Shown in pieces: positions 25,274 through 42,623 of a DNA stretch of 64,000 nucleotides. The notes beneath the pieces were generated by a model. The model saw only the letters and a program-made list of their open reading frames with translations, ran no database searches and was not told where the DNA came from. Source of the stretch: Bradyrhizobium xenonodulans (lineage in GTDB: Bacteria > Pseudomonadota > Alphaproteobacteria > Rhizobiales > Xanthobacteraceae); contig NZ_CP089391.1 of NCBI RefSeq assembly GCF_027594865.1, positions 1,456,501 to 1,520,500 on the forward strand. The letters are read 5' to 3'. Each line of letters starts with the position of its first letter. Position 1 is the stretch's first letter. The position numbers and the translations under genes were made by a program.

Positions 25274-26299
25274 GTGAAAGCCGTCCATACCGAACTGCAT
25301 CGCAGCCACGATCCGCAATTCTTCCTGGTTCGCGGCGTCGTCAAGCGCACCACCGAGCAGCCCGAGCGCGCCGACCGCCTGCTCAAGGGATTGAAGGACG
25401 GCAAGCACCAACTGGTCGAGCCGACCACATTCGGGCAGGGCCCCCGCGCGCGCATCCACAGCCCGGAATATCTGTCGTTCCTGAGCGAAGCCTGGGACGC
25501 CTGGACCGCGCTCGGCGATTCCGGTCCGGAGATGATCGGCAACATCCATCCCGTGCGCCACGCCGCGACCTATCCGACCCATATCGTCGGCAAGCTCGGC
25601 TGGCACACCGCCGACACTGCGGCGCCGATCGGCCCCGGCACCTGGGCCGCGGCCTGCGCGGCGACGGACGTTGCAGTCATGGCAGCGCAGATGGTGATGG
25701 ACGGCGAGGATGCGACCTACGCGCTCTGCCGTCCGCCCGGCCATCACGCCTATCGCGACATGGCCGGCGGCTTCTGCTTCCTCAACAACAGCGCGATCGC
25801 GGCAGCGCATCTGCGAACCAAGCACGAGCGCGTCGTGATCCTCGATGTCGACGTCCATCACGGCAATGGCACGCAAGGCATCTTTTACGCGCGGCCGGAT
25901 GTGTACACGATCTCGATCCATGCCGACCCGACTGCGTACTATCCGTTCGTGTGGGGCTATGCCCACGAGCGCGGCGAGGGCCCCGGCCTCGGCACCAATC
26001 TCAACATCCCGCTCGCCATCGGCACCGGCGACGACGGTTACATCCAGGCGCTGGATCTCGCGCGCAAGGCGATCGAATCCTTCGCGCCCGGTGCCCTCGT
26101 CATCGCGCTCGGCCTCGATGCCTCCGAGCACGATCCGCTGAGAGGATTGGCCGTCACCACACCCGGCTTCCGCCGCATCGGCCAGGCCATCGCGAAGATG
26201 GGCCTGCCGACCGTGTTCGTGCAGGAGGGCGGTTATCTCTCGGATATTCTGGGCGCGAATTTGACCTCGGTGCTGGCGGGATTCGAAGAGGCAAGGTGA
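25274..26299 (+). CDS. aphA: Histone deacetylase-family amidohydrolase (acetylpolyamine amidohydrolase-like)
   Basis: A 341-residue zinc amidohydrolase. Catalytic features are the His pair H157-H158 in RPPGHHAYRD, zinc ligands D193 and H195 in DVDVHHGNGT and D282 in LGLDASEHDP, and the Tyr in EGGYLS. The long sequence between and the GH-H pattern resemble bacterial acetylpolyamine amidohydrolases and HdaH. These remove acetyl groups from acetylputrescine or acetylspermidine. It starts with GTG. Its place next to polyamine-type genes supports that role, but the substrate is inferred. Confidence 0.85.
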   Translation: MKAVHTELHRSHDPQFFLVRGVVKRTTEQPERADRLLKGLKDGKHQLVEPTTFGQGPRARIHSPEYLSFLSEAWDAWTALGDSGPEMIGNIHPVRHAATYPTHIVGKLGWHTADTAAPIGPGTWAAACAATDVAVMAAQMVMDGEDATYALCRPPGHHAYRDMAGGFCFLNNSAIAAAHLRTKHERVVILDVDVHHGNGTQGIFYARPDVYTISIHADPTAYYPFVWGYAHERGEGPGLGTNLNIPLAIGTGDDGYIQALDLARKAIESFAPGALVIALGLDASEHDPLRGLAVTTPGFRRIGQAIAKMGLPTVFVQEGGYLSDILGANLTSVLAGFEEAR

Positions 26300-26607: not shown

Positions 26608-27339
26608 TCATTCAGCCGCTTCCTGGAGCGGCCAGGCATTGCGCGCGATGGGAAGACCCCCGGTCGCACGGGAGCCGTCGGCGATCGCGAGGCGGTGCGA
26701 GGGCGACGGCGAGCACAACGAGAACCGCCATCCATGAGGGTCGTCGGCGATATCGGGCTTGAAGCTGATTTCGATGGCTTCCCGCGACACCTGCATCGCG
26801 AAGGCGTCGAGCGGCAGATTGAGCCCAAAGCCCCTGGCCTTCAGATAGGCCTCCTTGAGCGTCCAGTAGTCGAAGAAGCGCTCGATTGCGGCCGGTTCCG
26901 GCAGTCCGCGCAAGGTTTCGACCTCCTCCGGCGCAAAGAAGCGAAGCGCGGTGGACAGCGGCGCGACACGGCGCGACACGGTCTCGACGTCGACGCCGAC
27001 TGTTTCATGCGCTGACACGACGCAGGCAACGCAGCCGTCGGCATGGGACAGGCTGAAATGCAGCGCGGTCGAGGTCGCGGGCGCTGCAACAAACGGCCGC
27101 CCGTAGCGGCCGGCTGCAAAGGACCAGTCGGACGGCGCGACATTGGGCGCGACCCGCGACAGCGCGAGGCGCAACATGGCGTGCGCAAAAACATATTGCC
27201 GCCGATGCCGCTCGAACATGAAGCGGTCGGCGCGGATCCGCTCGTCGACCGAGAGCAATCGTCGGCACGCATCGACCGCGCCCGGCGCGTCGATGCTCTC
27301 GATCAGTCCGACAAACAGTTCAATTCTGTCGTCTGCCAT
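26608..27339 (-). CDS. 4'-phosphopantetheinyl transferase (Sfp type)
   Basis: About 243 residues from the ATG at 27339. It has the Sfp-type motifs: VGVDVETV with the magnesium Asp and Glu, and FDYWTLKEAYLKARGFGL (W-x-x-KEA-x-x-K). It transfers the phosphopantetheine arm from CoA to a Ser of carrier domains. The nearby NRPS has two carrier domains (Ser 570 and Ser 1640) that need it. A longer frame to 27444 exists but adds an unlikely N-terminus. The leader contains a nested hairpin at 27401-27451. Confidence 0.88.
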   Translation of the reverse strand: MADDRIELFVGLIESIDAPGAVDACRRLLSVDERIRADRFMFERHRRQYVFAHAMLRLALSRVAPNVAPSDWSFAAGRYGRPFVAAPATSTALHFSLSHADGCVACVVSAHETVGVDVETVSRRVAPLSTALRFFAPEEVETLRGLPEPAAIERFFDYWTLKEAYLKARGFGLNLPLDAFAMQVSREAIEISFKPDIADDPHGWRFSLCSPSPSHRLAIADGSRATGGLPIARNAWPLQEAAE

Positions 27340-27400
27340 CAATTGGGCCCATGGCGTCAGGCGGGCTAGGTCCCCGGTCCCGACGGAAGAAAAAGCTGAG

Positions 27401-27451
27401 CAAGAATCAACTGCGCGGACCGCTTTAACGGTCCACCCGGGCAAATTCTTG
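27401..27451. promoter_or_regulatory. Nested hairpin upstream of PPTase gene
   Basis: An outer pair CAAGAAT (27401-27407) / ATTCTTG (27445-27451) encloses an inner pair GGACCG (27417-27422) / CGGTCC (27429-27434) with a 6-base loop. It lies 62-112 bases upstream of the minus-strand PPTase start. It could be a leader structure controlling the PPTase gene, or the end of the transcript from the NRPS side. Confidence 0.4.
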
Positions 27452-27537
27452 TCGATTTGCAGGCCGGTTTACAGGCGCAAGCTTGTGCGAGACCCCAGCC
27501 CGACGAGCGAGCGGCCATATCCGAAAAGTGAAGCCTG

Positions 27538-27570
27538 AAGATTCGTGCGGCGTCCCGGCCGACGAATCTT
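27538..27570. terminator. Hairpin at the stop codon of the Lys-rich gene
   Basis: Perfect 9-base arms AAGATTCGT (27538-27546) and ACGAATCTT (27562-27570), with a CGGC/GCCG pair inside the loop. The right arm includes bases of the TAA stop codon of the minus-strand 55-residue gene, so the hairpin forms right at the end of that message. Confidence 0.6.
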
Positions 27571-27736
27571 ACTTCTTCTTCTTGGCTTTCTTCGATCCGC
27601 CCAGCACCGAAAGGCTGGCGTCGACGTCCTTGAGCGCGGCCTGGAGCTTCTTCTTCTCGGCAGCCAGCAGCTTTTGCAGGGCCTTGCGGTCCTTGTCGCT
27701 CAATGAGGTGCCCTTGGTAAATTTGATGAAACCCAT
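27569..27736 (-). CDS. Lys-rich small protein between NRPS and PPTase (55 aa)
   Basis: A 55-residue protein from the ATG at 27736, preceded by a GGGGGAG site. It starts MGFIKFTKGTSLSDKDRKAL, forms a charged helix and ends in GGSKKAKKKK. It has no membrane segment, no Cys and no carrier-protein GxDSL motif, so it is not a carrier protein. It lies 143 bases after the NRPS stop on the same strand. I do not recognise a family; it might bind nucleic acid or an acidic partner through the Lys tail. Confidence 0.6.
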   Translation of the reverse strand: MGFIKFTKGTSLSDKDRKALQKLLAAEKKKLQAALKDVDASLSVLGGSKKAKKKK

Positions 27737-27878
27737 AACAAACTCCCCCGGTTGAAAATAATCGTCCAAATCAAAACACGGGAATAATCTTGCGCGGTGG
27801 CGCCAAATAATCAAGATACAACTTGCTCATTCACAGCTTTGACGAGTGAACCTGCATTCGTTCGCGCTTTACAGCCGG

Positions 27879-30800
27879 TCATGCCGCACGGCGCGCGATT
27901 AATCGGCCGAGCGGCGTGTTGGGTTGAGCGACGGCGGTCTGAAGCAGCGCGACGAGATCTGCCATCCACTCCGCGACCATAGGGCCATCGAGCAGCTCGC
28001 GCTTGTAATTGCACGAACCGGTGATTCCTGTCGGCCGCTCCTTGAGCATCAGCGACAGCCAGGTCTGGTCGATCGGCAGCACCGGCTGGCCCTCGCGCGC
28101 GATGTTGCCGATCGACTGCGCCGTAATCTCCGGTAGATCGAGCGGCTGGCGCAGCGGGTTCTGCAAGGTGAAATAGACCTGGAGCAGCGAGGCCGGATCG
28201 ATCCCCTCCTGCTCCAGATGGTCGGCCAGGATGTTGAACGGCAGCTCCTGCCGCGCATGCGCGTCGAGCACGCTCTGGCGCACGCGGGCCAGGGCCTGCG
28301 CGAACGACAGCTCCGGCGTGATTCGGGTGCGGACGATCACCGTGTTCTCGAACGGACCGACGATCCGGTCGGTGTCCGGCTGGGCGCGATTGGCCATGGC
28401 GGTGGCAATCGAGATGTCGGTGCGGCCGGTCCGCGCCAGCAGCAGGGCCTTCAGCCCGGTGAGAAGGCACATGAACAGCGTGCCGTTATGCTGGCCGGCG
28501 AACGCCGTGAGCCGGCTGATCAGCTCGCGCTCGAGGCTGACGGGGTGATGTCCGGCGGAGGCGTGGGGGCTCGCTTCCCCGTCGAAGAGGGGATTCGCAC
28601 CGCGCAGATTCGCGGTCCAGTCGGCGGCCTGGCGGCGGGCGGCGTCGGTGCCGCACCACCAGCGCTGCCACCGGGCGACGTCCGAAAAGGCGAGCGGCAG
28701 TTTCGGCAGCGGGACGGACGGACGTCCGGCCAGCGCCGCATAGCGGCTGGACAATTCCTCGAACAGCACGCCGATCGACCAGCCGTCGGCGACGGCATGA
28801 TGGAGCGTCAGCAGCAGCACGTGCTCCTCGGCATGGAGCCGCAACAGCCGCGCCCGCAACAGCGGCGGCCGCGCGGCGTCGAACGGGGCGTAGGTCTCCT
28901 GCTGGATCAGGAGATCGATCTTCCGGAGTTCGAGGGCCTTGCGCCGCTTGTTGTTGTGCGGGCGCCCGTCGCCGATGATTTCGACGGTGAGGACGGGTCC
29001 AAGTTCGCCGGGTGTGACGATGCGGCTGACGGGCTCTTCGCCGCTCCAGCCGAACCCGGTCCGCAGCGATTCGTGGCGCCGCACGATGTCGCCGAACGCC
29101 TGCGCGAGGATGGCCGGAGCGAGCGGGCCATGCAGACGGAAGGCAAAGGGCAGGTTGAACAGCGGCAGGCCCGGCAGGTTCTGCTCGATGCGGATCATCT
29201 GGTCCTGCGCGATCGAGAGCGCGAGAGGCCCGCCCTCGGCCAGGGGCGGTACGTTTGCGGCCGGCTCGTGCGGCTTCGCCGCCACGGCCTCGTCGACCCG
29301 CCGGGCGAGCGCCTCGATCGTCGGTGCCTCGAAGATGGTCTTGAGCGGCAGCGATACGCCGAGCGCACGGGCGATACGCGCCATCGTCCGGCCCGCCAGC
29401 AGCGAGTGGCCGCCGAGATCGAAGAAATTGTCGGTGACGCCCAGGCTCTCGACCTTCAGCAGGTCGATCCAGATGTCCGAGAGCACTTTTTCGGTGAAGT
29501 GCCGCGCCGGCACGGCGGCCTCCGGGCTAGAGACGTCCTGCTGCGCGGGCGCGCGCAGCGCCGACCGGTCGATCTTGCCATGGGCGTTGAGCGGCATCTG
29601 ATCCATGAACAGGAAGACGGACGGAATGGCATGACCCGGCAGCCGGCTCTTCAGGAATTGACGCAGCTCGCTGGCGCTGCTCTGGCTGCCGGGCTTTGCG
29701 ACGATGTGGGCGATCAGCCTGACGTCGCCGCTCGCCTCGCGACGCGGCTCGACGATGCCAGCGCGCACCGCCGGATGATCGGCAAGCGCGTTCTCGATCT
29801 CCTTGAGCTCGATACGATAGCCGCGGACCTTGACCTGATGGTCGGCGCGGCCCAGGCATTCGATCGTGCCATCGGTGCGGCGGCGGGCGAGGTCGCCGGC
29901 CCGGTACAGCCTCCTGCCTGCCTGGCGCGAGAACGGATCGGGGATGAAGCGCTGCCGGCTTTGCGCGGGATCGTTGATATAGCCGCGTCCAACGCCGGCG
30001 CCGGCGATGCAGAGCTCACCGGTCACGCCGACCGGCTGCGGCTGGAGGTGCGCATCGAGCACGTAAAGCTGGGTGTTGGGCAGCGGCGCGCCGACCGGAA
30101 CGTTGCTCGCCGCCGCCGCCGGCGCCTTGGTCAGACGGTGCAGCGAGACGTCGTCGGAGCATTCCGACGCACCATAGGCGTTGATCAGGGGCACCTTCGG
30201 GCAACGGGCGAACCAGGCACGGCAGAGATCGACCGGCAGCGGCTCGCCGGTCGAGATCAGCAGCCGCAATTTCGCAAAGGCGCGCCGGACCTGTGCCTCG
30301 TCCATGCGATCGAGTATCACGCGCAACAGCGACGGCACGATCTCGATCACCGTGATGCCCTCGCGCTCGATCTCGCGCGCGAACAGGATCGGGTCCTGCA
30401 CGATCGCGTTGGTGCAGACATGGACGCGCGCGCCGACCATCGGCCCGGCGAGGAACTGCCAGACCGAGATCACGAAGCTCTGCGGCGCGGTCTGCGCGAT
30501 GACGTCCCTGGCCGAGAGGCCGAGCTCGGAGATCAGCGAGGCCAGATGGTTCGAGAGCCCACGCTGCTCGATCATGACGCCCTTCGGCGCGCCGGAGGAG
30601 CCGGATGTATAGATGAGATAGGCAAGGCTGGAAGCCGCGCGCCGCGCGGCGCGGGCCGGCTTGACCGATCCGGGCGTGAGCGCGTCTTCGAGCTTGGCCA
30701 CATGGATGCGCTCGACCAGCGGTTCGAGCAGCGCCTCGGCCATGGATGACTGCGCGCGCCCGGTCAGCAGCATGCGGGCGCAGCTCGATCCCAAAATGGT

Positions 30801-33800
30801 CGCAAGCCGCGCCGGCGGCTGGTCGGGCTCGAGATTGAGGAAGGCCGCGCCCACGCGCTGCACGGCGATCATTGCGGCGAGCAAATCGGGCCCGCGCTCC
30901 GCGAGCAGGGCGACCACGCTCTCGGCGCCGACGCCTTCGCGCGCCAGCCAGCGCGCGGCGGCTTCGCTGCGGCGGGCCAGCTCGCGATAGGTCATGGATG
31001 TGCGTCCGTCCGATACTGCGATCGCGTTCGGCGTCTTCTTCGCCTGGCGGTCGTAACGTTCGCTCGGATTGCCGAGTGTCTTGAAATCGGCCGCCTCGCC
31101 CTGGCTCTTCGCCAGCATTTGCCGGCGCTCGGCCTCGGTCAGGAGCGGCAGGCGCGAGATGCGCTGCTCCGGATTGGCGATGACGGCCTTGAGCAGTGTC
31201 TTGAACTGCGCGGCCATGGCTTCGATCGTACCTTCGTCGAACAGATCGGTGGCGTATTCGAAGAAGCCGGTGAAGCGGCCGTCGGCCTCCACCAGTTCGA
31301 GCGTGATGTCGAAGCGTGCCACCTTGGGGTCGACCTCCAGCCGCCGCGTCGACAGGCCGGGGAAACGCGCCGCCTCGATCGAGGCGTTCTGGAGGATGAA
31401 CATGATCCGGAACAGCGGATTGCCGTCGGTCCTTCGTGCGACCTGGAGCGCGCGCAGCACCTCCTCGATCGGAAGATCCTGGTTGCGGTATGCATCCAGT
31501 GTGACTTGCCGCACCCGCCGCAACACGTCGCCAAAACCCGGATCGCCGCCGAAATCGTTGCGCAGGATCAGGGTATTGGCGAACAGGCCGATCAGGCGTT
31601 CGCTCTCGATCTGGTTGCGATTGGCGATCAGCGATCCTGTCGCGACATCTTCGTGGCCGGTGTGGCGGAATAGCAGGCACTGGAACGCCGCGAGCAGCGT
31701 CATAAAGGGCGTGACGCCCTGGTTCTGGCTCAGTGCGCGCAGATCAGCCGACAGCGTTTTGGAGAATTCGAGATAGTGACGGGCGCCGTGACCGCTCCAG
31801 ACCTCCGGCCGTGGCCGGTCGGTCCGCAGCGGCAGCGTGGTGATGCCGTCGAGCTGCGTCTTCCAGTAGTCGAGTTGCTCCTTTGCGGCCGGCATCTCGG
31901 CCCAGCTCTGCTGCCACAGCGCAAAGTCGCGGTACTGGAAGGTGAGCGAAGGCAGCGTCGCCGCCCTCGCCTTGCGTGCGGCGGCATAATGGGCGGCGAG
32001 CTCTTCCCAGAACAATCGCTGTGACCAGCCGTCGGTGACGAGGTGGTGGACGTTGACCACCAGCGCATGGCTGGATCTGTCGAACGACAGCAGCGTGACC
32101 TTCAGCGGTGGCTCCCGCGAAAGATCGAACGGATATTGCGCGAGCCTGGCCGCCTCGCGATAGATGACCGCGGTCCGTTTGTCCGCGGGGCAGGGCTTGA
32201 GCTTGATCCACTCGAACCGCGGCGGCGATTGCAGCACGCGCTGCACCGGCTCGCCCCGTCGCTCGATGAAGACCGAGCGCAGCGCCTCATGGCGCGCGCA
32301 GATCGTGGTGAGGCTCGCAGACAGCGCGGAGACATCGACCAGGCCCTTGAGAAGGGCGACCTCGACGACGTTGTAATTGTAGCGGGTCGGATCGAGCCGC
32401 GAGAGCACATACATCCGCTGCTGCTGGAACGACAGCGGCGCATCCGCCGCCGCGGCCGGACGCCAGGCCGGCAGCATCGTTTCGCGATGCGCCGCGGCGG
32501 TCTCGATCCGGGCCGCAAGCGCCGAGACCGTCGCGCAATCGAAGATGTCCTCGAACGAGAAGTCGACATTGAAGCGCTCGCGCAGGCGCGAGCGCATCTG
32601 CGTCGCCGCGAGCGAGTCCGCGCCGAGCGCAAAGACGTCCTGGTCGACGCCGACCTGCGGCAGCTCCAGCAGGCCGGCCCAGATCTCCGCAAGCTGGGTC
32701 TCCAGCGCGTTGCGCGGCAGTTGCGCCTCATCGCCGTGCTCTGCCCTGGCGACCAGGTCCGCCAGCGCATTGCGCTTGACCTTGCCGCTGGCACCCTTCG
32801 GCAGCGTGGCCACGCTGCGGATCAGGCTCGGCACCTTGTAGGCCGCAAGTCGTTTGCGCGCGAATTGCCGTAGCTGATCCGAGGTCGCCTCGGAATTCGG
32901 CCGCAGCACCACGACGGCGGCGACGTTCTCGCCGAGCTTTGGGTGCGGGACGGCGAACACGCCGGCCTCCAGCACCGCCGGATGGCTGAGCAGGACCTCC
33001 TCCACCTCCAGCGGCGAGATCTTCTGGCCGCCACGATTGATCACGTCCTTGATGCGGCCGACGATGAAGAGATAGCCGTCGGCATCGAGATAGCCGAGGT
33101 CGCCGGTCCGGAACCAGCCGTTGCGGAATGCGGCCCGGGTCGCCGCCTCGTCATTGTAATAGCCGCGGCTCATGTTGGGGCCGCGCAGCATGATCTCGCC
33201 ATGCTCGCCGCTCGCAAGCGTGCGGCCGGTTTCGTCCATGATCGCGATTTCCGGGCCTGCGGCGCGGCCGACCGATCCGACCTTGCGCAGCTCGAACGGA
33301 TTGGCCGCGATCTGCGAAGCCGCTTCCGTCATGCCGTAGGTTTCGAGCACGGGAACGCCGAACATCGTCTCCAGCCCGCTCAGGATCGCAGGCGCGAGCG
33401 AGGACGAGGCCGAACGGATCACGCGCAGCGAAGACGAGCGGGCGCGATCCGGATTGGCTTCGGCTGCCGTCAGCAGCGCGCGATGAATGGTCGGCACCGC
33501 CGTGTACCAGGTCGGTCGCAGCTCCCGCATCCAGCCGAAAAACGACGATGCATCGAAACCGTCGGTGCAGATCACGCTGGAGCCCGCGGCCAGCGCCGTC
33601 AGCAGGCCGGAGATCAGCCCATGGGCGTGAAACAGCGGCAGGGCATTGAGCAGGCGGTCGTGGGGCCCAAGCGACAATACGCGGCCGGCATTGTAGGCGG
33701 AGAGACACACATTGCGCTGCGTCAGCGGCACCATCTTCGGCCGCGCTGCGGTGCCTGACGTCAACAGGATGAAGGCGTCGTCGTCGCCGCGCGAGGCGCC

Positions 33801-34322
33801 GCTGCCATTGGCCGGACCGACCGTCGGGCCGATGAATGCGCAGCCGCCGAGATTGTCGTCCGGTCCCGGCACGAAATCGATCACTGCGATATCGAGCGCC
33901 TTGGCGACGTCACGACTTGGTGAGTTCATGTCGGCGCGGGTGAGGAGCGCCGTCAGCTTCAATTCGCTGAAATAACGTTGCAGCTCGTCGGCCGTCAGGT
34001 CGGGATTGATGGGGACGCAGGCGCAGCTCGAGGCGACCGCGATCAGCGCCAGCGCACTGTCGGCGCCGCGTGGCAGCGCAACGGCAATCCGGTCCGCAGG
34101 GCCAATGCCGAGCCCGCGCAGGGTGCGGACCAGGTGCTGGATCAAGTCACCCAGCTTGCCGTAGGTGAGGGGTGGCCGGCCAGGGGCGAGGAGAGCCGGT
34201 GCCGCCGGCGTCTTCCGGGCATAAAAGTCGAGAAGGCCGCCGATATGGGCAAAGGTCCTGGTTTCGGCGCCTGCGCTGTCCGATCCCTCTTCCGTTCCGG
34301 ATGCAGTGTCCGACAATGCCAT
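27879..34322 (-). CDS. Nonribosomal peptide synthetase, A-T-C-A-T-C
   Basis: A 2147-residue assembly-line enzyme. A1 (about residues 25-525) resembles acyl/oxalate-CoA ligases (LLTSGTAARPKMVPLTQ, TYGMTEAASQ). T1 has its phosphopantetheine Ser at 570 (GADSL). C1 (about 630-1070) has HHLVTDG at 759-765. A2 (about 1075-1585) is amino-acid-type (YTSGSSGAPKGV, AYGASECSDDV). T2 has Ser 1640 (GGHSL). C2 (about 1700-2140) has HHAVADG at 1841-1847. No thioesterase, reductase or epimerase is seen. The likely product is an acyl-aminoacyl unit joined by C2 to a free amine. A TTG at 34355 is another start; AGGA lies directly against the ATG. It is divergent from the cyclase gene. Confidence 0.9.
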   Translation of the reverse strand: MALSDTASGTEEGSDSAGAETRTFAHIGGLLDFYARKTPAAPALLAPGRPPLTYGKLGDLIQHLVRTLRGLGIGPADRIAVALPRGADSALALIAVASSCACVPINPDLTADELQRYFSELKLTALLTRADMNSPSRDVAKALDIAVIDFVPGPDDNLGGCAFIGPTVGPANGSGASRGDDDAFILLTSGTAARPKMVPLTQRNVCLSAYNAGRVLSLGPHDRLLNALPLFHAHGLISGLLTALAAGSSVICTDGFDASSFFGWMRELRPTWYTAVPTIHRALLTAAEANPDRARSSSLRVIRSASSSLAPAILSGLETMFGVPVLETYGMTEAASQIAANPFELRKVGSVGRAAGPEIAIMDETGRTLASGEHGEIMLRGPNMSRGYYNDEAATRAAFRNGWFRTGDLGYLDADGYLFIVGRIKDVINRGGQKISPLEVEEVLLSHPAVLEAGVFAVPHPKLGENVAAVVVLRPNSEATSDQLRQFARKRLAAYKVPSLIRSVATLPKGASGKVKRNALADLVARAEHGDEAQLPRNALETQLAEIWAGLLELPQVGVDQDVFALGADSLAATQMRSRLRERFNVDFSFEDIFDCATVSALAARIETAAAHRETMLPAWRPAAAADAPLSFQQQRMYVLSRLDPTRYNYNVVEVALLKGLVDVSALSASLTTICARHEALRSVFIERRGEPVQRVLQSPPRFEWIKLKPCPADKRTAVIYREAARLAQYPFDLSREPPLKVTLLSFDRSSHALVVNVHHLVTDGWSQRLFWEELAAHYAAARKARAATLPSLTFQYRDFALWQQSWAEMPAAKEQLDYWKTQLDGITTLPLRTDRPRPEVWSGHGARHYLEFSKTLSADLRALSQNQGVTPFMTLLAAFQCLLFRHTGHEDVATGSLIANRNQIESERLIGLFANTLILRNDFGGDPGFGDVLRRVRQVTLDAYRNQDLPIEEVLRALQVARRTDGNPLFRIMFILQNASIEAARFPGLSTRRLEVDPKVARFDITLELVEADGRFTGFFEYATDLFDEGTIEAMAAQFKTLLKAVIANPEQRISRLPLLTEAERRQMLAKSQGEAADFKTLGNPSERYDRQAKKTPNAIAVSDGRTSMTYRELARRSEAAARWLAREGVGAESVVALLAERGPDLLAAMIAVQRVGAAFLNLEPDQPPARLATILGSSCARMLLTGRAQSSMAEALLEPLVERIHVAKLEDALTPGSVKPARAARRAASSLAYLIYTSGSSGAPKGVMIEQRGLSNHLASLISELGLSARDVIAQTAPQSFVISVWQFLAGPMVGARVHVCTNAIVQDPILFAREIEREGITVIEIVPSLLRVILDRMDEAQVRRAFAKLRLLISTGEPLPVDLCRAWFARCPKVPLINAYGASECSDDVSLHRLTKAPAAAASNVPVGAPLPNTQLYVLDAHLQPQPVGVTGELCIAGAGVGRGYINDPAQSRQRFIPDPFSRQAGRRLYRAGDLARRRTDGTIECLGRADHQVKVRGYRIELKEIENALADHPAVRAGIVEPRREASGDVRLIAHIVAKPGSQSSASELRQFLKSRLPGHAIPSVFLFMDQMPLNAHGKIDRSALRAPAQQDVSSPEAAVPARHFTEKVLSDIWIDLLKVESLGVTDNFFDLGGHSLLAGRTMARIARALGVSLPLKTIFEAPTIEALARRVDEAVAAKPHEPAANVPPLAEGGPLALSIAQDQMIRIEQNLPGLPLFNLPFAFRLHGPLAPAILAQAFGDIVRRHESLRTGFGWSGEEPVSRIVTPGELGPVLTVEIIGDGRPHNNKRRKALELRKIDLLIQQETYAPFDAARPPLLRARLLRLHAEEHVLLLTLHHAVADGWSIGVLFEELSSRYAALAGRPSVPLPKLPLAFSDVARWQRWWCGTDAARRQAADWTANLRGANPLFDGEASPHASAGHHPVSLERELISRLTAFAGQHNGTLFMCLLTGLKALLLARTGRTDISIATAMANRAQPDTDRIVGPFENTVIVRTRITPELSFAQALARVRQSVLDAHARQELPFNILADHLEQEGIDPASLLQVYFTLQNPLRQPLDLPEITAQSIGNIAREGQPVLPIDQTWLSLMLKERPTGITGSCNYKRELLDGPMVAEWMADLVALLQTAVAQPNTPLGRLIARRAA

Positions 34323-34457
34323 TCCTTTTTGATCTGATTGGTCTATTCTTCCCAAGACTTAGGGAACGCGTCCAGTCTGAGGTGAAGTTCGGGCCCCAAA
34401 ATCTGTGGTTGAGGGGCCTAAAGCCCTTCGACGGAGTGAGGGTCGGGCAGAATCACC
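34323..34457. promoter_or_regulatory. Divergent promoter region, NRPS / cyclase
   Basis: 135 bases between the NRPS start and the cyclase-like gene must hold both promoters. The NRPS side is more AT-rich than the genome (around 34323-34355). I see no clear -35/-10 pair or palindrome. Confidence 0.4.
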
Positions 34458-37400
34458 ATGCTGGAGAATGAGCCGGACACGGGGACGGAAGGCGGGCTGA
34501 AGCGCTGGCTCGAAGGCATCGGTCTTGGTCATTACACCGATCTCTTCGCGCAGCACCGCCTCGACCTCGATGTGATGGGGGATTTGACTGAATCCGATCT
34601 GGTCGAGCTCGGATTGCCGTTGGGCGATCGCAAGCGCCTCCAGCGGGCCATGACAGCCTTGTTCCAGGCCGAGACCGTACAGAAGCCAGAGGCGGCGCCC
34701 CGCCCGCAAGACCGGGCGGAAGTTGGCGCCGAGCGGCGTCAGCTCACCACCATGTTCTGCGACATGGTGGATTCCACCTCGCTCTCGGTGCAGTTCGATC
34801 CGGAAGACGTACGCGACATGATCGCGAGTTTTCGCGAAACCTGCGTCCGGGTGGTGAAGCATTATGAAGGCTTTGCCGCACGTTTCGTCGGCGACGGTAT
34901 CCTGGTCTATTTCGGCTATCCGACCGCGCATGAGGACGATGCCGAGCGCGCGGTGCGCGCCGGGCTCGAGATCGTGCGGGTGTTGTCGACGGCGCGCGCA
35001 ATCGAGCCGCGCGGCGCGCTCAGCCACGCGCCCGCCGTCCGCATCGGCATCGCAACCGGTCTCGTCGTGGTCGGCGACCTCGTCGGACAGGGCACCGAGG
35101 AGCGCGACTCCGCGGTCGGAGAAACCGTCAATCTCGCCGCACGCCTGCAAGGCCTCGCGCCGCCCAACGGCGTCGTGATCTCGGCATCGACGCAGTCGCT
35201 GTTGAAGGGAAAGTTTGATTACCGCAATCTCGGCGTCCATGCGCTGAAGGGCATCTCGGACAAGGCGCAGGCCTGGCACGTGATGCGGGCCTCCCGGGTG
35301 GAGACCCGCTTCGCCGCCGCGATGGGCACGCGGCTGACGCCGCTCGTCAATCGCGAGGAGGAGATCGCGCTGCTGATGGGGCGCTGGCAGCAGGCCAAGG
35401 ACGGCGACGGCCAGGTCGTGGTCAAGTTCGGCGAACCCGGCATCGGCAAGTCGCGCATCATCCAGGAGATTTTCGAGCGGATTTCCGGCGACCGGCACGG
35501 GCAGATCTCGTTCCAGTGTTCGCCCTATTACACCTCCACGGCGTTCTACCCGTTCTCCGAGCAGCTCAAATTCTCGCTCGGTCTCGACCGCGAGGATCCG
35601 TCCGCGATGTCATTGGCCGGCCTGGAGGCCGCGATTGCCGCAGCCCATGGCGACATCGAGCAGGTTGCGCCGCTGTTTGCCGCGCTGCTGTCGATCCCGA
35701 CCGGAGATCGCTATCCGCCGCTCGACCTGTCGCCGCAGCAGCAGAAGGATGCGACCGTCGCGGCGCTGGTCAATCACCTGCTCGGCCTCGCGCGCGAAAT
35801 GCCGCTGGTGATCGCGCTCGAGGATCTGCACTGGATCGATCCGACCTCCCGCGAGGTGATCGACCTCCTGGTCGACCGGGTGCAGAACCGGCCGATCCTG
35901 ACCATCATCACCGCGCGCTCCGAATTCCAGCCGAGCTGGGATGCGCATTCGCACATCACGACGCTGGTGCTGAACCGCCTGAGCCGCCAATTGCGCGCGA
36001 CGCTGGTCGAGCGCGTTGCGGGCCGCGAGCTTCCCAAGGAGGTGGTCGAGGAGATCATCGTCAAGACCGATGGTGTGCCGCTGTTCCTCGAGGAGCTGAC
36101 CAAGACGGTTCTGGAATCCAACCTCCTCACCGAGCGGCACGGCCGCTACGTGCTTTCCGGCCCGTGGCGGCAACTCGCGATCCCGGCGACCCTGACGGAT
36201 TCGCTGATGGCGCGGCTGGACCGGATGGGGCCGTTCAAGCGGATCGCGCAGATCGGCGCCACAATAGGCCGCGAGTTTTCCTACGAGACGCTGCGCGCGG
36301 TCGCCAACACGCCGGCAGAGCAGATCGAGGCCGCGCTCAATCATCTGGAGGAGGCGGGACTGATCATGCGCCGCGGCCATCCGCCCGACGCGCTCTATTC
36401 CTTCAAGCACGTGATGATCCAGAATGCCGCGCATGCGAGCCTCTTGCACAGCGAGCGGCGCAAGCTGCATTCCCGGATCGCCCAGGTGCTCGCCGAGATG
36501 TATCCGGAGAAGACCGAGCGCGAGCCGGAGCTGCTCGCCCATCATCTGACTGAATCCGGTCAGAGCGAGGGTGCCGCCAGCTTCTGGCTCAAGGCCGGCA
36601 AGCAGGCGGCCAAGAGCGGCGCCAATCTGGAGGCGATCGGCCATCTGCGTCGCGGCCTCAGCGTCGTGCAGGCCAATGCGCGCATGCAAGGAGCGGACGA
36701 GATGGAGCTCGAGCTGCGCATCGCGCTCGGCAACGCACTGATCGCCGCCAGAGGCTATGCGGTGCAGGAGGTCGAGGAGAACTACATTCGCGCGCTCGAA
36801 CTCGGCCAGCAGCTCGACGACGACGAAAAGATCTTTGCCGCCACCCGCGGGCTCTGGGTCTGCCATTTCATCCGCGCCGATCTCACCCGCGCTCACGATC
36901 TCAGCGTCGAGCTGCTCAAGTTCGCCAAGCGCGAGCGGCTGAACGAGCGGACGCAGCCGGCGCAGCAGACCGGCTATCTGATCGAGGCGCACCGCGCGAT
37001 CGCGATGACCATGCTCTATCGCGGCCGTTTTGCGGCGTCCCACCATCACCTGCATCGCTGCATCAATCTCTACAGTCCGGATCTGCATTTTGAACTGATG
37101 GAGCGGCACGGCATCGAGCCCGGCGTCGTCTCGCTGTCCTATCTCGGCTACCTCCTGTGGTTCCTTGGCCGGCCCGACGCGGCGCGACAGCACAGCGAGC
37201 AGGCGATCGCTAACGCGGAGAAGGTCCGCCATCCCTTCACGCTCGCCTTTGCGCTGGTGTTCGGCGCCTATCTCTGCCAGCACCTGCGCGACGTCGAGGG
37301 TACGCGTGACTACGCCAACCGCGCCATGATCATCGCCACCGAGCACAATTTCCTGCATTGGAAGCAGCAGGCGGCGATCCTGCGCGGCTGGGCGCTGGCT

Positions 37401-37928
37401 CAGCTCGGCGAGGCGGACGAGGGCCTCAGCCAGATGCGCTTCGGCCTCGACGAATACGAGGCGATGGATTCCTGGCTTGCCGGCTGCTGGTTCCGCTGCC
37501 TGCTGGCGGAGGCCTACACCAAGGTCGGGATGCGCGATGCCGCGTTGCGCGCGCTGGACGGCGCGCTCGCGACTGCGAGACGCACAGGCGACCACTCTTA
37601 CCTCGCAGAGGTCTATCGCCTGCAAGGCGAAATCACGCTGTTGGACGGCGAACCTGCGTCGGTGCAGGAGGCCGAGGACTTGTTCGCGCTGTCGTTGGAG
37701 ACTGCGCGCAAGCAGGGCGCGCTGTCCTGGGAGCTTCGCACCGCGGTCAGCCTCGCGCGTCTGTCGCAGCAAGCCGGCAAGCGCGAGCATGCCAGTCTCC
37801 TGCTCGTGCCGATCGTCGGCAAGTTCAGCGAAGGTTTTTACACGCCGGACCTGAAACAGGCGATGCAGCTCGTCAACGAGCTCGGTGCGGACGCACTCGT
37901 TCGCGAACCGGCCGATCCCGTGCGATGA
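34458..37928 (+). CDS. SAM domain - class III adenylate cyclase - AAA ATPase - TPR protein
   Basis: A 1156-residue cytoplasmic signalling protein. A SAM domain (about residues 12-70) is followed by a class III cyclase (about 95-265) with metal Asp in FCDMVDSTS, VGDGILVYF and the VNLAARLQ Asn/Arg pair. Arg replaces the usual Lys before FVGDG. Next comes an AAA/STAND ATPase (about 295-600) with Walker A GEPGIGKSR and Walker B-like VIALEDLHWID, and a long helical TPR-like C-terminus. The SAM-first architecture is known in rhizobial proteins of unknown signal. It is divergent from the NRPS and overlaps the methyltransferase gene by 4 bases. Confidence 0.85.
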   Translation: MLENEPDTGTEGGLKRWLEGIGLGHYTDLFAQHRLDLDVMGDLTESDLVELGLPLGDRKRLQRAMTALFQAETVQKPEAAPRPQDRAEVGAERRQLTTMFCDMVDSTSLSVQFDPEDVRDMIASFRETCVRVVKHYEGFAARFVGDGILVYFGYPTAHEDDAERAVRAGLEIVRVLSTARAIEPRGALSHAPAVRIGIATGLVVVGDLVGQGTEERDSAVGETVNLAARLQGLAPPNGVVISASTQSLLKGKFDYRNLGVHALKGISDKAQAWHVMRASRVETRFAAAMGTRLTPLVNREEEIALLMGRWQQAKDGDGQVVVKFGEPGIGKSRIIQEIFERISGDRHGQISFQCSPYYTSTAFYPFSEQLKFSLGLDREDPSAMSLAGLEAAIAAAHGDIEQVAPLFAALLSIPTGDRYPPLDLSPQQQKDATVAALVNHLLGLAREMPLVIALEDLHWIDPTSREVIDLLVDRVQNRPILTIITARSEFQPSWDAHSHITTLVLNRLSRQLRATLVERVAGRELPKEVVEEIIVKTDGVPLFLEELTKTVLESNLLTERHGRYVLSGPWRQLAIPATLTDSLMARLDRMGPFKRIAQIGATIGREFSYETLRAVANTPAEQIEAALNHLEEAGLIMRRGHPPDALYSFKHVMIQNAAHASLLHSERRKLHSRIAQVLAEMYPEKTEREPELLAHHLTESGQSEGAASFWLKAGKQAAKSGANLEAIGHLRRGLSVVQANARMQGADEMELELRIALGNALIAARGYAVQEVEENYIRALELGQQLDDDEKIFAATRGLWVCHFIRADLTRAHDLSVELLKFAKRERLNERTQPAQQTGYLIEAHRAIAMTMLYRGRFAASHHHLHRCINLYSPDLHFELMERHGIEPGVVSLSYLGYLLWFLGRPDAARQHSEQAIANAEKVRHPFTLAFALVFGAYLCQHLRDVEGTRDYANRAMIIATEHNFLHWKQQAAILRGWALAQLGEADEGLSQMRFGLDEYEAMDSWLAGCWFRCLLAEAYTKVGMRDAALRALDGALATARRTGDHSYLAEVYRLQGEITLLDGEPASVQEAEDLFALSLETARKQGALSWELRTAVSLARLSQQAGKREHASLLLVPIVGKFSEGFYTPDLKQAMQLVNELGADALVREPADPVR

Positions 37929-38814: not shown

Positions 38815-39765
38815 ATGCATTCCGTTGCCCTGCTGACCGCCAGCTATGCCAAGGATATCGAGCGCTTTTCGCTGCTCAGCGAGAGCATCGACACTTGGCT
38901 CACGGGATACACGCGGCATTATGTTCTCGTTAACGATGAGGACGTGCCGCTGTTCGCGCGGTTCGCGTCCGACAAGCGCGTCATCGTTCCCGCCTCGCGC
39001 TATTTGCCGAAATGGCTCTGGGCGCTGCCGCCAGCGCTCCAGTTCCTCAGCAAGCGCCGGGTCTGGCTGTCGCTGCTGTCGTCGCCTGTGCACGGCTGGC
39101 ACATCCAGCAGATCCTGAAGATCGCCGGCGTGCTCAACGCGCCCGAGCAGCGGGTCTGCATCCTGGATTCGGACAACCTGTTCTTCCGTGAATTCGACGT
39201 CGGCCAATATGCCGGCGCCGAGAAGACGCCGCTGTTCGTCACCCCGAAGGACATCGGCGCTGACCACCCGCTGCATGGGCTGTGGCTGCGCACCGTCGAT
39301 CAGCTTCTCGGCATCAAGCAGCGCTCGTTCCCCGCCGACGATTATGTCGGCAACGCGCTGGTCTGGGACAAGGACACCGCGCGCGCGATGACCGCCCAGA
39401 TCAAATCGGCGACGGGGTTGAACTGGGTTCTGGCGCTGTGCCGGAAGAAGAAGTTCTCGGAATATTTGATGTATGGCCACTTTGTCGCGAACTCGCCCGC
39501 GCATCTGGCCACCCATCGCGTGACGGAAGACAGCATCGCCGTCTCGCACTGGGACGACACGCCGCTCGACCGCCCGGCCATCGAAGCCATGATGCGCGCC
39601 GCTTCGCCCGAACAGGTCGCGCTCTGCATCCAGTCCTATTCGTCGACTTCGGTCGACGACATCCGCGACGTGTTCCGCCTCAGCTCGCGCGACCGCCGCG
39701 CTCCGAGCCTGTCTCCCGACCACATGGGGGAAGAAGCTCAGTTCGAGATGCCCAAGGCACGCTAG
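38815..39765 (+). CDS. DUF6492-like protein, possible glycosyltransferase
   Basis: A 316-residue soluble protein. It opens with SVALLTASYAKDIERFSLL, a pattern like GT-A type transferases, and has CILDSDNLFF at about residues 121-130, a DxD-like motif that could bind a metal-nucleotide sugar. This agrees with the DUF6492 family found in polysaccharide loci. No signal peptide or membrane segment is seen. It is followed by a GH10 gene (convergent) and a flippase, so an envelope or exopolysaccharide role is plausible. Confidence 0.65.
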   Translation: MHSVALLTASYAKDIERFSLLSESIDTWLTGYTRHYVLVNDEDVPLFARFASDKRVIVPASRYLPKWLWALPPALQFLSKRRVWLSLLSSPVHGWHIQQILKIAGVLNAPEQRVCILDSDNLFFREFDVGQYAGAEKTPLFVTPKDIGADHPLHGLWLRTVDQLLGIKQRSFPADDYVGNALVWDKDTARAMTAQIKSATGLNWVLALCRKKKFSEYLMYGHFVANSPAHLATHRVTEDSIAVSHWDDTPLDRPAIEAMMRAASPEQVALCIQSYSSTSVDDIRDVFRLSSRDRRAPSLSPDHMGEEAQFEMPKAR

Positions 39766-39768
39766 GCC

Positions 39769-40869
39769 TCACGCGTCCCTCGTAAACTTGCTGATCACGT
39801 CCATGAACGGCTTCGGCTTGAACTCGCCGTCGAGCGGCAGGGGACGGTTCGGCTGCTTGTCGGCGCGGGCGAAGACGCCGTTGATCCAGCTGTAGCGATC
39901 CGAAAGGCCCCAGGTCAGAATCGAGCGCACCGGGCCGCTGGTCGAGATCGCCGTCAGCAGATCATTGACGCGCCTGGCGACGATGGCGTCGCGCTCGGCC
40001 GCATTGCCCGTCAGCTTCTGATCGTCGACGTCGAGCTCGGTGACGAGTACCTCGAGCCCCCACGAGCGCAGCTCCGTGACGAATTCGGCCAGCCCATGCG
40101 TGTCGATCTCGAGCTCGGCATGCAGATGCGATTGCAGCCCCACGGCGTGCAGCGGCACGCCCTGGTCGAGCAAATCCATGATGAGATGGCGGTAGGCCGC
40201 GCGCTTGGCAATGAACGTATCCTTCGCCGACTCGATGTCATATTCGTTGATCGCGAGCTTGACGAAGGGATCGGCCGCGGCGGCGGTGCGGAACGCCAGC
40301 GGAATCCAGTTATTGCCGAGATGCTGTGTCCAGAACGTGTCGCGCCGGTCGGTGACCTTCTTGGGATTGTCCGGGATCGGCTCGTTGACGACGTCCCACG
40401 AGGTCAGCTTGTCCTTGTAATAGGATACGACGGTGCCGATGTGGTCGACATAGGCGCGCTCGACGCCCTTGGTGTCCTTGATCTGCTTGGTCCAGTCCGG
40501 AATGTCGTGATACCAGGCGAGCGCATGGCCGCGCATCGTCAGATCGTTGTCCCGCGCGTAATCCAGGATCGCATCCGCGCGTTCGAAGTTGAACGTGTGC
40601 GCGTTCGGCCGCAGCATCGGCCATTTCAACTCGAGCACCGGTACCACCTGCGTGCAATAGGTGCTGATGGCTTCGCCGAGCCTGGGATCGGCTTGCAGGT
40701 CCCAGAGCGTCGCCGCCGCGCCAAAGCCCGGACGGCGCTGCGCGAGTTTGGACGCAGGTGCCGCCGACGCCGTTGCGCCCGCTGCGAGCGTTGCGGCGCC
40801 GCAGAGAAGAAATTCGCGTCTGTCGAGCCTGGTCACGTCGGGGTGTTCCTTTTGGAACCAACGCGCCAT
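39769..40869 (-). CDS. GH10 endo-1,4-beta-xylanase, Tat-exported
   Basis: A 366-residue glycoside hydrolase family 10 enzyme. It has a twin-arginine signal (LDRREFLL at residues 15-22, then an Ala-rich hydrophobic stretch). The acid/base Glu is E163 in WDVVNEP and the nucleophile is E278 in VTELDVD. GH10 enzymes cleave xylan and related beta-1,4 chains. Only the catalytic domain is present, with no carbohydrate-binding module. It is convergent with the DUF6492-like gene and divergent from the flippase gene 317 bases away. It might trim a bacterial polysaccharide or plant wall xylan. Confidence 0.9.
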   Translation of the reverse strand: MARWFQKEHPDVTRLDRREFLLCGAATLAAGATASAAPASKLAQRRPGFGAAATLWDLQADPRLGEAISTYCTQVVPVLELKWPMLRPNAHTFNFERADAILDYARDNDLTMRGHALAWYHDIPDWTKQIKDTKGVERAYVDHIGTVVSYYKDKLTSWDVVNEPIPDNPKKVTDRRDTFWTQHLGNNWIPLAFRTAAAADPFVKLAINEYDIESAKDTFIAKRAAYRHLIMDLLDQGVPLHAVGLQSHLHAELEIDTHGLAEFVTELRSWGLEVLVTELDVDDQKLTGNAAERDAIVARRVNDLLTAISTSGPVRSILTWGLSDRYSWINGVFARADKQPNRPLPLDGEFKPKPFMDVISKFTRDA

Positions 40870-41186
40870 CGTACCAAGCGTCGCCCCGTGACGCCGGGGT
40901 TTCCTGTTGTTGGGTTAACCCTTGCCGGATGTTCGGGGCACCTGCGCGCGTGGTGTCGCATCGCTGTTCCAGTCTGGACCAAGGTTTCGTCCGGGATCGC
41001 GGAAATCGCTTCAACGAAAGGGCAAATTTAACGCTAACGCGCAAAAGCGGCCTCAAAGCCTCATTCGGCGCCCGATCTGCAGACTTATGTGACACTGTTG
41101 CGAGATGCTGCGGCGCAGTTCGTTCGCCCGCCAAGATCCCGTTAAGGCCCATTGATTAACGGCCGTCATCATCGCAACGGTCCCGC
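40870..41186. other. Intergenic region with no gene seen
   Basis: 317 bases between the divergent xylanase and flippase genes. The middle (about 41020-41090) is more AT-rich and could hold promoters. A weak inverted pair GTTAAGGCCC / GATTAACGGCC lies at about 41142-41163. I see no convincing short gene on either strand. Confidence 0.4.
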
Positions 41187-42623
41187 ATGCTGAACCGCCA
41201 TTTCTCGATTTATCTCGTCGCCTACATCCTGCCCGCGGCGGTGGGCTTCTTCGCGATCACGGCCTACACGCGGCTGCTGACGCCTGCGGAGTATGGTGTC
41301 TATGTCGTCGGCATCAGCCTTGCCGGAATCCTGGGCGCGATCTTCTTCGCCTGGATCAAGCTGTCGGTGTCGCGCTATCAGGCGATGTCGGCGGAGGTGG
41401 ATTTTCGCGGCACGGCGATGGTCGCCTTCGGGCTGACGGTCGCGGTGCTCTGCGCCACCACGCCGCTGGTGTTTCTGTTTCGCAGCGATGTCAGTATCGA
41501 GTTGCTGCTCGCCAGCATGTTCGTCGCCATCATGGCCAATGCGGTCGACGTCGGGCAGGAGTTCGAGCGCGCCAAATTGCGGCCCTATCGTTTCGCCGCG
41601 ATCTCGATCGTGCGCAGCGTGTCGAGCGTCGGCTTCGGTCTGCTCGGCATCTGGCTGGGCTGGGGTGGATTGGGGCTGCTCGCGGCATTCGGCCTCGGTT
41701 CGCTCAGCGGCATCATCCTCAATCTCGTCGGCGATCGCACCAAGATCGCGCGCTTCCAGCGCAGCCAGTTCATGCAGTTGGCGCGCTACGGCCTGCCGCT
41801 GACGCTGGCTGGACTCTCCGTCGCCGTCTATTCGGCCTGCGACCGGCTCATCGTCGCCTATCTGCTCGGCAAGGACGCCGCCGGTATCTTTGGCGTCGCC
41901 GCCGATCTGCCGCGCCAGTTCATGGTGATGATCGCCTCCAGCGTCGCAGCTGCGACCGTGCCGCTGGTGTTCCGGTCGTTGTCCGAGAAGAATGATGAGA
42001 TCACGCGGGAACGGCTGACGGAGAGCCTCGAATTGCTGCTCGTCGTCGTCGCGCCCGTTGCCGTCTGGCTCGCGCTCGCGGCCGACGAGGTCGCGGGCAC
42101 GCTGGTTGGCGTCGACTTCCGCGCCGGTGTGTCGGCGTTGCTGCCGACACTCGTGCTTGCCCGCTTCTTCGGCATCGCCAATCAGTTCTACGTGCAGATC
42201 AGCTTCCAGCTCGCCGAGCGGCCCTTCATGCTGGCGACGCAGTCGTTCCTCACGCTGGTCGTCAGCGTCGTGCTGATGTTTGCGCTGGTGGCCGGCTACG
42301 ATCTCTACGGCGCGGCGCTGGCGACGCTTGCGACCGAGGCGATCGGCTTCGTCGTCGCCGTCGCGCTGATGCACCGCGCCCATCCCGTGCCGTTCGATTT
42401 CAACCGCCTCGCTGGTGTTGCGGTTTCAGCCGCGGCAATGGCGGCTGCGATCCTGCTTGCGCGGTCGCAGGTTAACGGCACCGGAATCGTGGCGCTGATC
42501 GTCGTGAGCCTTGCCGGCGGCTTTGCTTATGTCGCCGTGGCCTGGCTGCTGAACGTCGCGAACGTGCGGACGCTGTCGCTGCGCTTCCTGCGGACGTTCA
42601 ACCGGAAAGCGGTCGGCGTGTAG
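41187..42623 (+). CDS. Polysaccharide/lipid-linked oligosaccharide flippase (Wzx/MATE-like)
   Basis: A 478-residue inner membrane protein with about 12-14 hydrophobic segments of the MOP superfamily. The N-terminal AYTRLLTPAEYGVYVVG is typical of polysaccharide transport proteins that flip lipid-linked sugar units. No Wzy or Wzz-like gene is in the window. Its stop lies two bases from that of the convergent SDR gene. Confidence 0.85.
   Translation: MLNRHFSIYLVAYILPAAVGFFAITAYTRLLTPAEYGVYVVGISLAGILGAIFFAWIKLSVSRYQAMSAEVDFRGTAMVAFGLTVAVLCATTPLVFLFRSDVSIELLLASMFVAIMANAVDVGQEFERAKLRPYRFAAISIVRSVSSVGFGLLGIWLGWGGLGLLAAFGLGSLSGIILNLVGDRTKIARFQRSQFMQLARYGLPLTLAGLSVAVYSACDRLIVAYLLGKDAAGIFGVAADLPRQFMVMIASSVAAATVPLVFRSLSEKNDEITRERLTESLELLLVVVAPVAVWLALAADEVAGTLVGVDFRAGVSALLPTLVLARFFGIANQFYVQISFQLAERPFMLATQSFLTLVVSVVLMFALVAGYDLYGAALATLATEAIGFVVAVALMHRAHPVPFDFNRLAGVAVSAAAMAAAILLARSQVNGTGIVALIVVSLAGGFAYVAVAWLLNVANVRTLSLRFLRTFNRKAVGV

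Follow-up and report, generated by a model that had tools for sequence, protein, structure and literature searches.

How does a non-ribosomal peptide synthetase (NRPS) that ends in a condensation domain release its chain? The question is raised by a gene in a 64,000-nucleotide stretch of Bradyrhizobium xenonodulans DNA (contig NZ_CP089391.1, positions 1,456,501 to 1,520,500), here called the window, which comes from an 8.28 Mb single-contig genome. The NRPS gene occupies 27879..34355 on the minus strand as one open frame of 2158 codons counted from TTG 34355, and encodes two modules of adenylation (A), carrier (T) and condensation (C) domains in the order A1-T1-C1-A2-T2-C2. We propose that the chain is released by C2 onto an amine acceptor, and that a small basic protein and a class III nucleotide cyclase are associated with the enzyme. 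To this explanation as a whole we assign a probability of about one half.

The order A-T-C-A-T-C, already given in an initial annotation of the window, was confirmed by two AMP-binding, two PP-binding and two Condensation stretches in Pfam and by the motif positions, which make C2 the final domain with no domain after it. All six domains lie on the minus strand: A1 at 32754..34244 (residues 38-534, acyl/oxalate-CoA-ligase-like), T1 at 32505..32696 (residues 554-617, GADSL serine), C1 at 31113..32444 (residues 638-1081, HHLVTDG), A2 at 29556..31052 (about residues 1102-1600), T2 at 29295..29492 (about residues 1622-1687, LGGHSL) and C2 at 27882..29231 (about residues 1709-2158, HHAVADGWS). The serine motif is thus present in both carriers and HHxxxDG in both condensation domains. 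The true start is more likely to be ATG 34322 or TTG 34316, a codon kept in 13 of 13 aligned sequences, than TTG 34355. As the initial annotation had stated, no thioesterase (TE) appears nearby: Pfam found none of this family in 40 window open reading frames (ORFs), a subset that includes some shadow ORFs and leaves the genome outside the window unsearched. The same genome holds a second NRPS frame of 2167 codons (G000:C1:6898715-6904192), 31-38% identical in parts to the window NRPS, and a third of 896 codons (6989928-6991892).

The terminal position and intact motif claimed for C2 were confirmed. HHxxxDG was complete in 83 of 83 copies in which the motif columns are filled, the other five of the 88 aligned rows having gaps there, and nothing follows C2. 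A structure model from 52 sequences reached a pLDDT of 90.5 with the C-domain fold intact (a model from eight sequences, at a pLDDT of 48, was useless), and the domain is under purifying selection. Were C2 a dead remnant, release would fall to hydrolysis or to a TE encoded elsewhere; the median dN/dS of 0.26, the highest of the six domains, and a TE search confined to window ORFs are compatible with this, but the intact motif, the selection and the modelled fold make it extremely improbable.

Relatives were taken as the best 74 distinct loci of 429 candidates (L-numbers denote loci and G-numbers genomes). Since all 74 encode NRPS relatives, the observation is not a chance one. Seventy-three are named Bradyrhizobium and one, L034, is labelled 'Frankia sp. 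RB7'; as the eight neighbours compared share 84-96% identity with those of the window, we take the Frankia label to be wrong. A search with the C2 alignment at E 1e-90 or better matched 76 of 146 Bradyrhizobium genomes, with 78 matches in total. Complete copies in the genus scored at least 639 bits, partial copies in G225 and G188 scored 596 and 437 bits, and a divergent second copy in G200 scored 313. The best matches outside the genus reached 301 bits in 398 genomes of the phylum and 241 bits in 150 genomes of the order; the C2 family was therefore seen only in Bradyrhizobium in these samples. No close relative was found in the plasmid collection, where all 939 records stayed below 60% identity. 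The NRPS loci of G225 and G188 (L160:5921-12299 and L164:5402-8778) have domains split across frames or missing and look broken, and the NRPS stretch of Bradyrhizobium sp. AT1 (L081:10001-17151) is about 680 bases longer and contains unread bases.

Three architectures were found. The first is the A-T-C-A-T-C of the window. The second is a short A-T-C form with frames of 1087-1110 residues, present in G009, G010, G198, G200, G248 and G284. In the third, at L086:10031-20528, the terminal-C enzyme is replaced by a first protein ending after A-T-C-A-T, followed by a luciferase-like monooxygenase and then a C-A-T-TE protein; L087 has the same A-T-C-A-T first part and monooxygenase, with a second NRPS frame behind it in G029. 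The TE of this lineage was scanned in L086 alone. In a tree of C domains, one clade (SH-aLRT 100) took in C2 from 11 long forms together with the C domain from five short forms, C1 of 15 formed another, and the C domain of the C-A-T-TE protein grouped with ordinary C domains. This was a quick tree with long-branch warnings, one of which concerns the point at which L156, a distant second copy in G200, joins the C2 clade. By identity, the short-form C domain is nearer C2 (44-46%) than C1 (30-32%), and the C domain of the L086 C-A-T-TE protein is nearer C1 (37.5%) than C2 (32%). In a tree of A1 domains the six short forms made one clade (100/100), and L086 and L087 stood among the long forms, with a group support of 99/100. 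On the strength of these two trees, the terminal C domain reads as a unit that can follow either one module or two and that is missing from a single TE-bearing lineage.

The same material bears on two other fates for the chain. C2 could hand it in trans to the carrier of another NRPS, which would suit the C-A-T-TE protein standing in L086 where C2 would be, and also the two other NRPS frames in the window's genome. We consider such a transfer distinctly improbable: the neighbours compared included no partner A-T protein, and the A-T-C forms of other genomes end alike. C2 might also cyclise the chain or end it intramolecularly, as fungal CT domains do and as the terminal C domain of HtmB2 may do. 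HtmB2-CT (8z0q/8z0r, titled 'special condensation domain in NRPS') is likewise C-terminal and has a high fold similarity to C2 at 27-29% identity, but its HHxxxDG stretch is altered whereas that of C2 is intact. Ordinary C domains (Txo2, LgrA) match C2 at least as well as HtmB2-CT does, and the short A-T-C forms would carry a single loaded acid with little to cyclise, so we doubt that intramolecular release is the function of C2.

What the enzyme would load is suggested by its two A domains. The acyl/oxalate-CoA-ligase character attributed to A1 was borne out: its closest solved relatives are the plant and yeast oxalate-CoA ligases (5ie0, 6qjz, 8aff), with 387 bits to 5ie0, and it scored 589 bits against a FadD7-type ligase model, below that model's cut-off of 650. 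A1 differs from these ligases in being fused to a carrier and in the residue after MTEA: the aligned oxalate-CoA ligases have a His there, which we take to be an active-site residue, while A1 has Ser in the window and Thr in the short forms. A2, by comparison, is doubtful as the ordinary amino-acid domain it had been called. We took the ten pocket positions, including the Asp235 presumed for ordinary alpha-amino-acid domains, from GrsA. Position 235 is Val in 85 of 85 readable rows (of 88 rows, two lack A2 and one is unreadable), and as a column check, alignment to LgrA A2 set this Val under the LgrA Asp. The pocket code is VIWEITADDK in 77 rows, the window included, VIWQITADDK in six and a single variant in each of two. 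Because Val replaces Asp235 in every readable copy, the substrate of A2 is probably not a plain alpha-amino acid. Codes with Val235 are known for beta-alanine and keto acids, though we treat this as a lead rather than a result.

From this order of domains a plausible sequence of steps can be drawn. A phosphopantetheinyl transferase (PPTase) would load both carriers. A1, by its domain family, would activate a carboxylic acid and place it on T1, and A2, having lost Asp235, may place a non-standard amine-bearing acid on T2. C1 would join the two loaded units, and C2 would transfer the chain to an amine-bearing acceptor in place of TE hydrolysis. Of the mechanisms considered, we hold transfer to an amine to be the most likely, and acid-amino acid-amine, the product named in the initial annotation, is still an inference. 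The small protein described below may be a docking partner, an activator or an acceptor, either in the C2 step or for the cyclase nearby. A luciferase-like monooxygenase in most relatives, and a second flavin-monooxygenase-like protein in one lineage, could oxidise the product, and the nearby class III cyclases may regulate the genes or detect the product.

A terminal C domain without a TE is of a known kind. The rhabdopeptide/xenortide synthetases have a C domain at the very end and no TE, and release onto an amine has been proposed for them; in these respects the window NRPS resembles them. They are, however, single-module, iterating proteins whose building blocks are methylated amino acids, whereas the Bradyrhizobium enzyme is one fixed two-module protein with an acyl-ligase start and with a small basic protein and cyclases as neighbours. 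VibH and SgcC5 share with C2 the condensation fold and would share with it an acceptor that is not carrier-bound, but both are free-standing while C2 is fused to its own donor carrier, and SgcC5 (4znm) matches C2 with fewer bits than Txo1 does (111 against 169). We know of no described system that combines this C2 clade, three architectures, a nearly constant small protein and recurrent cyclases, and to our knowledge no product has been reported for this Bradyrhizobium NRPS family.

Behind C2 stands a Lys-rich small basic protein of 55 amino acids (MGFIKF...KKAKKKK; 27569..27736, minus strand). The initial annotation had counted it as part of the locus, and its distribution agrees. It stands behind the NRPS in 72 of the 74 named loci, recognised by pattern in 66, by frame reading in five (L059, L061, L077, L090, L092) and by tblastn in one (L076); the two loci without it, L086 and L087, are also those without C2, and it follows the short A-T-C forms as well. 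Across the 146 genomes of the genus, 76 of the 78 C2-type domains are accompanied on their own strand by a small-protein match, which lies a median of 145 bp (range 119-458 bp) from where the C2 match ends. Of the two exceptions, G248 carries the small gene inverted (48 residues), and none was recognised beside the second copy of G200, so that the family adjoins 77 of 78 C2-type domains. All 76 genomes with C2 have a match, and among the other 70 only G219 does (Fisher p 1e-41, a figure that ignores relatedness). At L156:10882-11184, an ORF overlapping the end of the NRPS, which is the most divergent short form and has no recognised small protein, carries a similar 'GLSQEERAKLKAEAL' stretch. 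Purifying selection acts on the small ORF: pooling 15 comparisons with the window gave a pN/pS of 0.16. Its core, aligned in 16 rows, has invariant M1, L12, L20, L24 and L35, and their spacing, judged by eye, suggests a long helix. Fifteen full sequences, orphan copies included, have 55-65 residues and a Lys/Arg-rich end; the net charge is positive in 14 of them and is -1 in L151, where acidic residues follow that end. Seven sequences searched against Pfam gave no match above a curated cut-off.

This near one-to-one pairing in long and short forms, and the absence of the small protein where C2 is absent, would also be expected if C2 acylated a lysine of the small protein, which would then be a ribosomal amine acceptor whose tethered product the flavin monooxygenases act on. 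Each of the 15 sequences compared has at least one Lys in its C-terminal Lys/Arg-rich stretch. Against this, the core has no invariant lysine and the tails vary: L151 ends in acidic residues, and the one inverted copy, which is in L159, is without a long tail. In addition, we know of no bacterial C domain that acylates a ribosomal protein. PEARL/scaffold-peptide pathways and acylated RiPPs, in which a peptide of about 50 residues is paired with a bond-forming enzyme and flavin oxidases, offer an analogy only; no such enzymes were noticed among the genes examined, in which no search was aimed at them. Acylation of the small protein thus appears unlikely. Its extension into a new kind of release pair, in which C2 passes the acyl-aminoacyl chain to a ribosomal peptide dedicated to this purpose, at one of its lysines, and the peptide so modified is read or controlled by a nearby class III cyclase, is more doubtful still.

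Copies of the small gene away from the NRPS bear on both this idea and the role of the cyclase. Second copies in G251, G002 and G213 (L184:9447, L185:9685 and L186:9126) have no adjacent NRPS. Each follows a flavin-monooxygenase-like frame, which measures 546-595 codons from stop to stop, and lies tail to tail with a gene of SAM-cyclase-AAA type that is 70-72% identical to that of L151. The flavin frame at these sites and the frame directly upstream of the L151 NRPS match the same families (Pyr_redox_3 and, weakly, Lys/Orn oxygenase) and start alike when compared without alignment. A fourth orphan copy, in G034, lies at a contig end (L187:327), and all four genomes have a C2 enzyme elsewhere. 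The small gene can thus stay with a cyclase and a monooxygenase where no NRPS is adjacent. For acylation by C2 this cuts both ways: the flavin-monooxygenase-like gene and the cyclase accompany the small gene in genomes with the NRPS elsewhere, but the orphan copies persist without an adjacent NRPS.

In the window, the cyclase is a SAM-class III nucleotide cyclase-AAA-TPR protein (34458..37928, plus strand), divergent from the NRPS with 135 bp between ATG codons. A class III cyclase domain was found in the flanks of 20 of 22 representative loci, comprising all 20 with C2 and neither L086 nor L087, and the window-type cyclase lies near the NRPS in 70 of the 74 named loci, the others being L086, L087 and two at which the contig ends (L068, L089). 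The arrangement varies. A cyclase divergent from the NRPS start is of the window type, or of another type in L158; it is tail to tail in L151, L152 and L162, and 50 bp upstream on the same strand in L156. It lies downstream on the same strand in L155, L157, L159 and L161, with one gene between in L157 and L161 and more than 5 kb between in L159. The types near the small protein also differ widely (SAM-CHD-AAA, CHD-TPR). With 30 class III cyclase domains in 8.28 Mb, the chance of one per 2 x 5 kb is 0.036, a figure whose reading is limited by the unproven independence of these arrangements.

The small protein could then be a signalling adaptor for the class III cyclase that merely travels with the NRPS, while C2 uses a diffusible amine; this is compatible with release onto an amine as proposed here. 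The three orphan copies beside a SAM-cyclase-AAA gene point in this direction, as do G011 and G219, two genomes in which NRPS, cyclase and luciferase-like monooxygenase are all missing from the site: G219 retains a broken relic of the small gene, and in G011 it gives no match. Conversely, G017 keeps a cyclase without the small protein, and cyclase types vary widely while the order of NRPS and small protein is nearly constant. We regard the adaptor role as possible, if somewhat unlikely.

A Sfp/HetI-like PPTase (26608..27444, minus strand) lies just downstream of the NRPS, as first described, but the suggestion that it is dedicated to the NRPS had to be rejected, because it survives the loss of the NRPS in G011 and G219; nor was there a PPTase match beside the NRPS at five of the 74 named loci (L059, L061, L086, L087, L090), or in the stretch read in G017. 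It seems to be the only Sfp-type enzyme of the genome, since the other of two PF01648 matches is in a 176-codon frame that we read as AcpS-like. A luciferase-like monooxygenase is present at the locus in 64 of 74 named relatives and absent from that of the window, whose genome has no close copy elsewhere (best 31% identity). The window locus is therefore not self-contained, contrary to the possibility first raised, and none of the genes adjoining the NRPS is an evident source of the acid or the amine. In L151 (L151:8395-18759) the locus comprises the PPTase, the luciferase-like monooxygenase, the flavin-monooxygenase-like gene directly before the NRPS, the NRPS and the small protein, with the cyclase tail to tail. 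A histone-deacetylase (HDAC)-family protein (25274..26299, plus strand) belongs to the genome backbone and lies outside the system. Its gene occurs in 26 of 27 other genomes of the genus, including 13 of 14 without a C2-type domain, and has no match beside the NRPS of L059, L061, L077 and L090; we therefore rejected an HDAC/acetylpolyamine deacetylase as polyamine supplier. Beyond the cyclase, at 38815-42623, a DUF6492 protein, a GH10 glycosidase and a polysaccharide flippase form an apparent polysaccharide locus. Overall, the initial interpretation is partly supported: the domain order, A1, C2, the lack of a nearby TE and the small protein stand, the dedicated PPTase and the self-contained locus do not, and the ordinary A2 is doubtful.

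Several observations weigh against the explanation proposed here. All five short-form C domains compared read HDxxxDG instead of HHxxxDG, so catalysis differs at least in the short forms, and L156 reads HQxxxDG, which speaks against a simple sameness of the terminal C domains. Three of the 78 C2-type matches sit in shortened frames (G194, G225, G188), and some C2 copies thus look broken. G017 keeps the cyclase and the HDAC-family gene with no C2 or small-protein match. The orphan copies beside a cyclase argue against a small protein that serves C2 alone, and it may serve the cyclase instead; the two are confounded, because loci without one are mostly without the other, as in L086 and L087, which lack both. 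With Asp235 changed, the putative A2 substrate may or may not have an alpha-amine. Finally, the genomes are related, so that counts are not independent events.

Some form of the C2 enzyme is present in about half of the sampled genomes of Bradyrhizobium (76 of 146), bacteria of agricultural weight. The family offers natural variants of one terminal C domain, after one module or after two, with one lineage that has C-A-T-TE instead, and the release of NRPS products by C domains thereby becomes testable by comparison. The near-constant pairing of C2 with the small protein, together with the recurrent cyclases, suggests an unrecognised helper, acceptor or signalling link, and this association of C2, small protein and cyclase hints at a new type of partnership.

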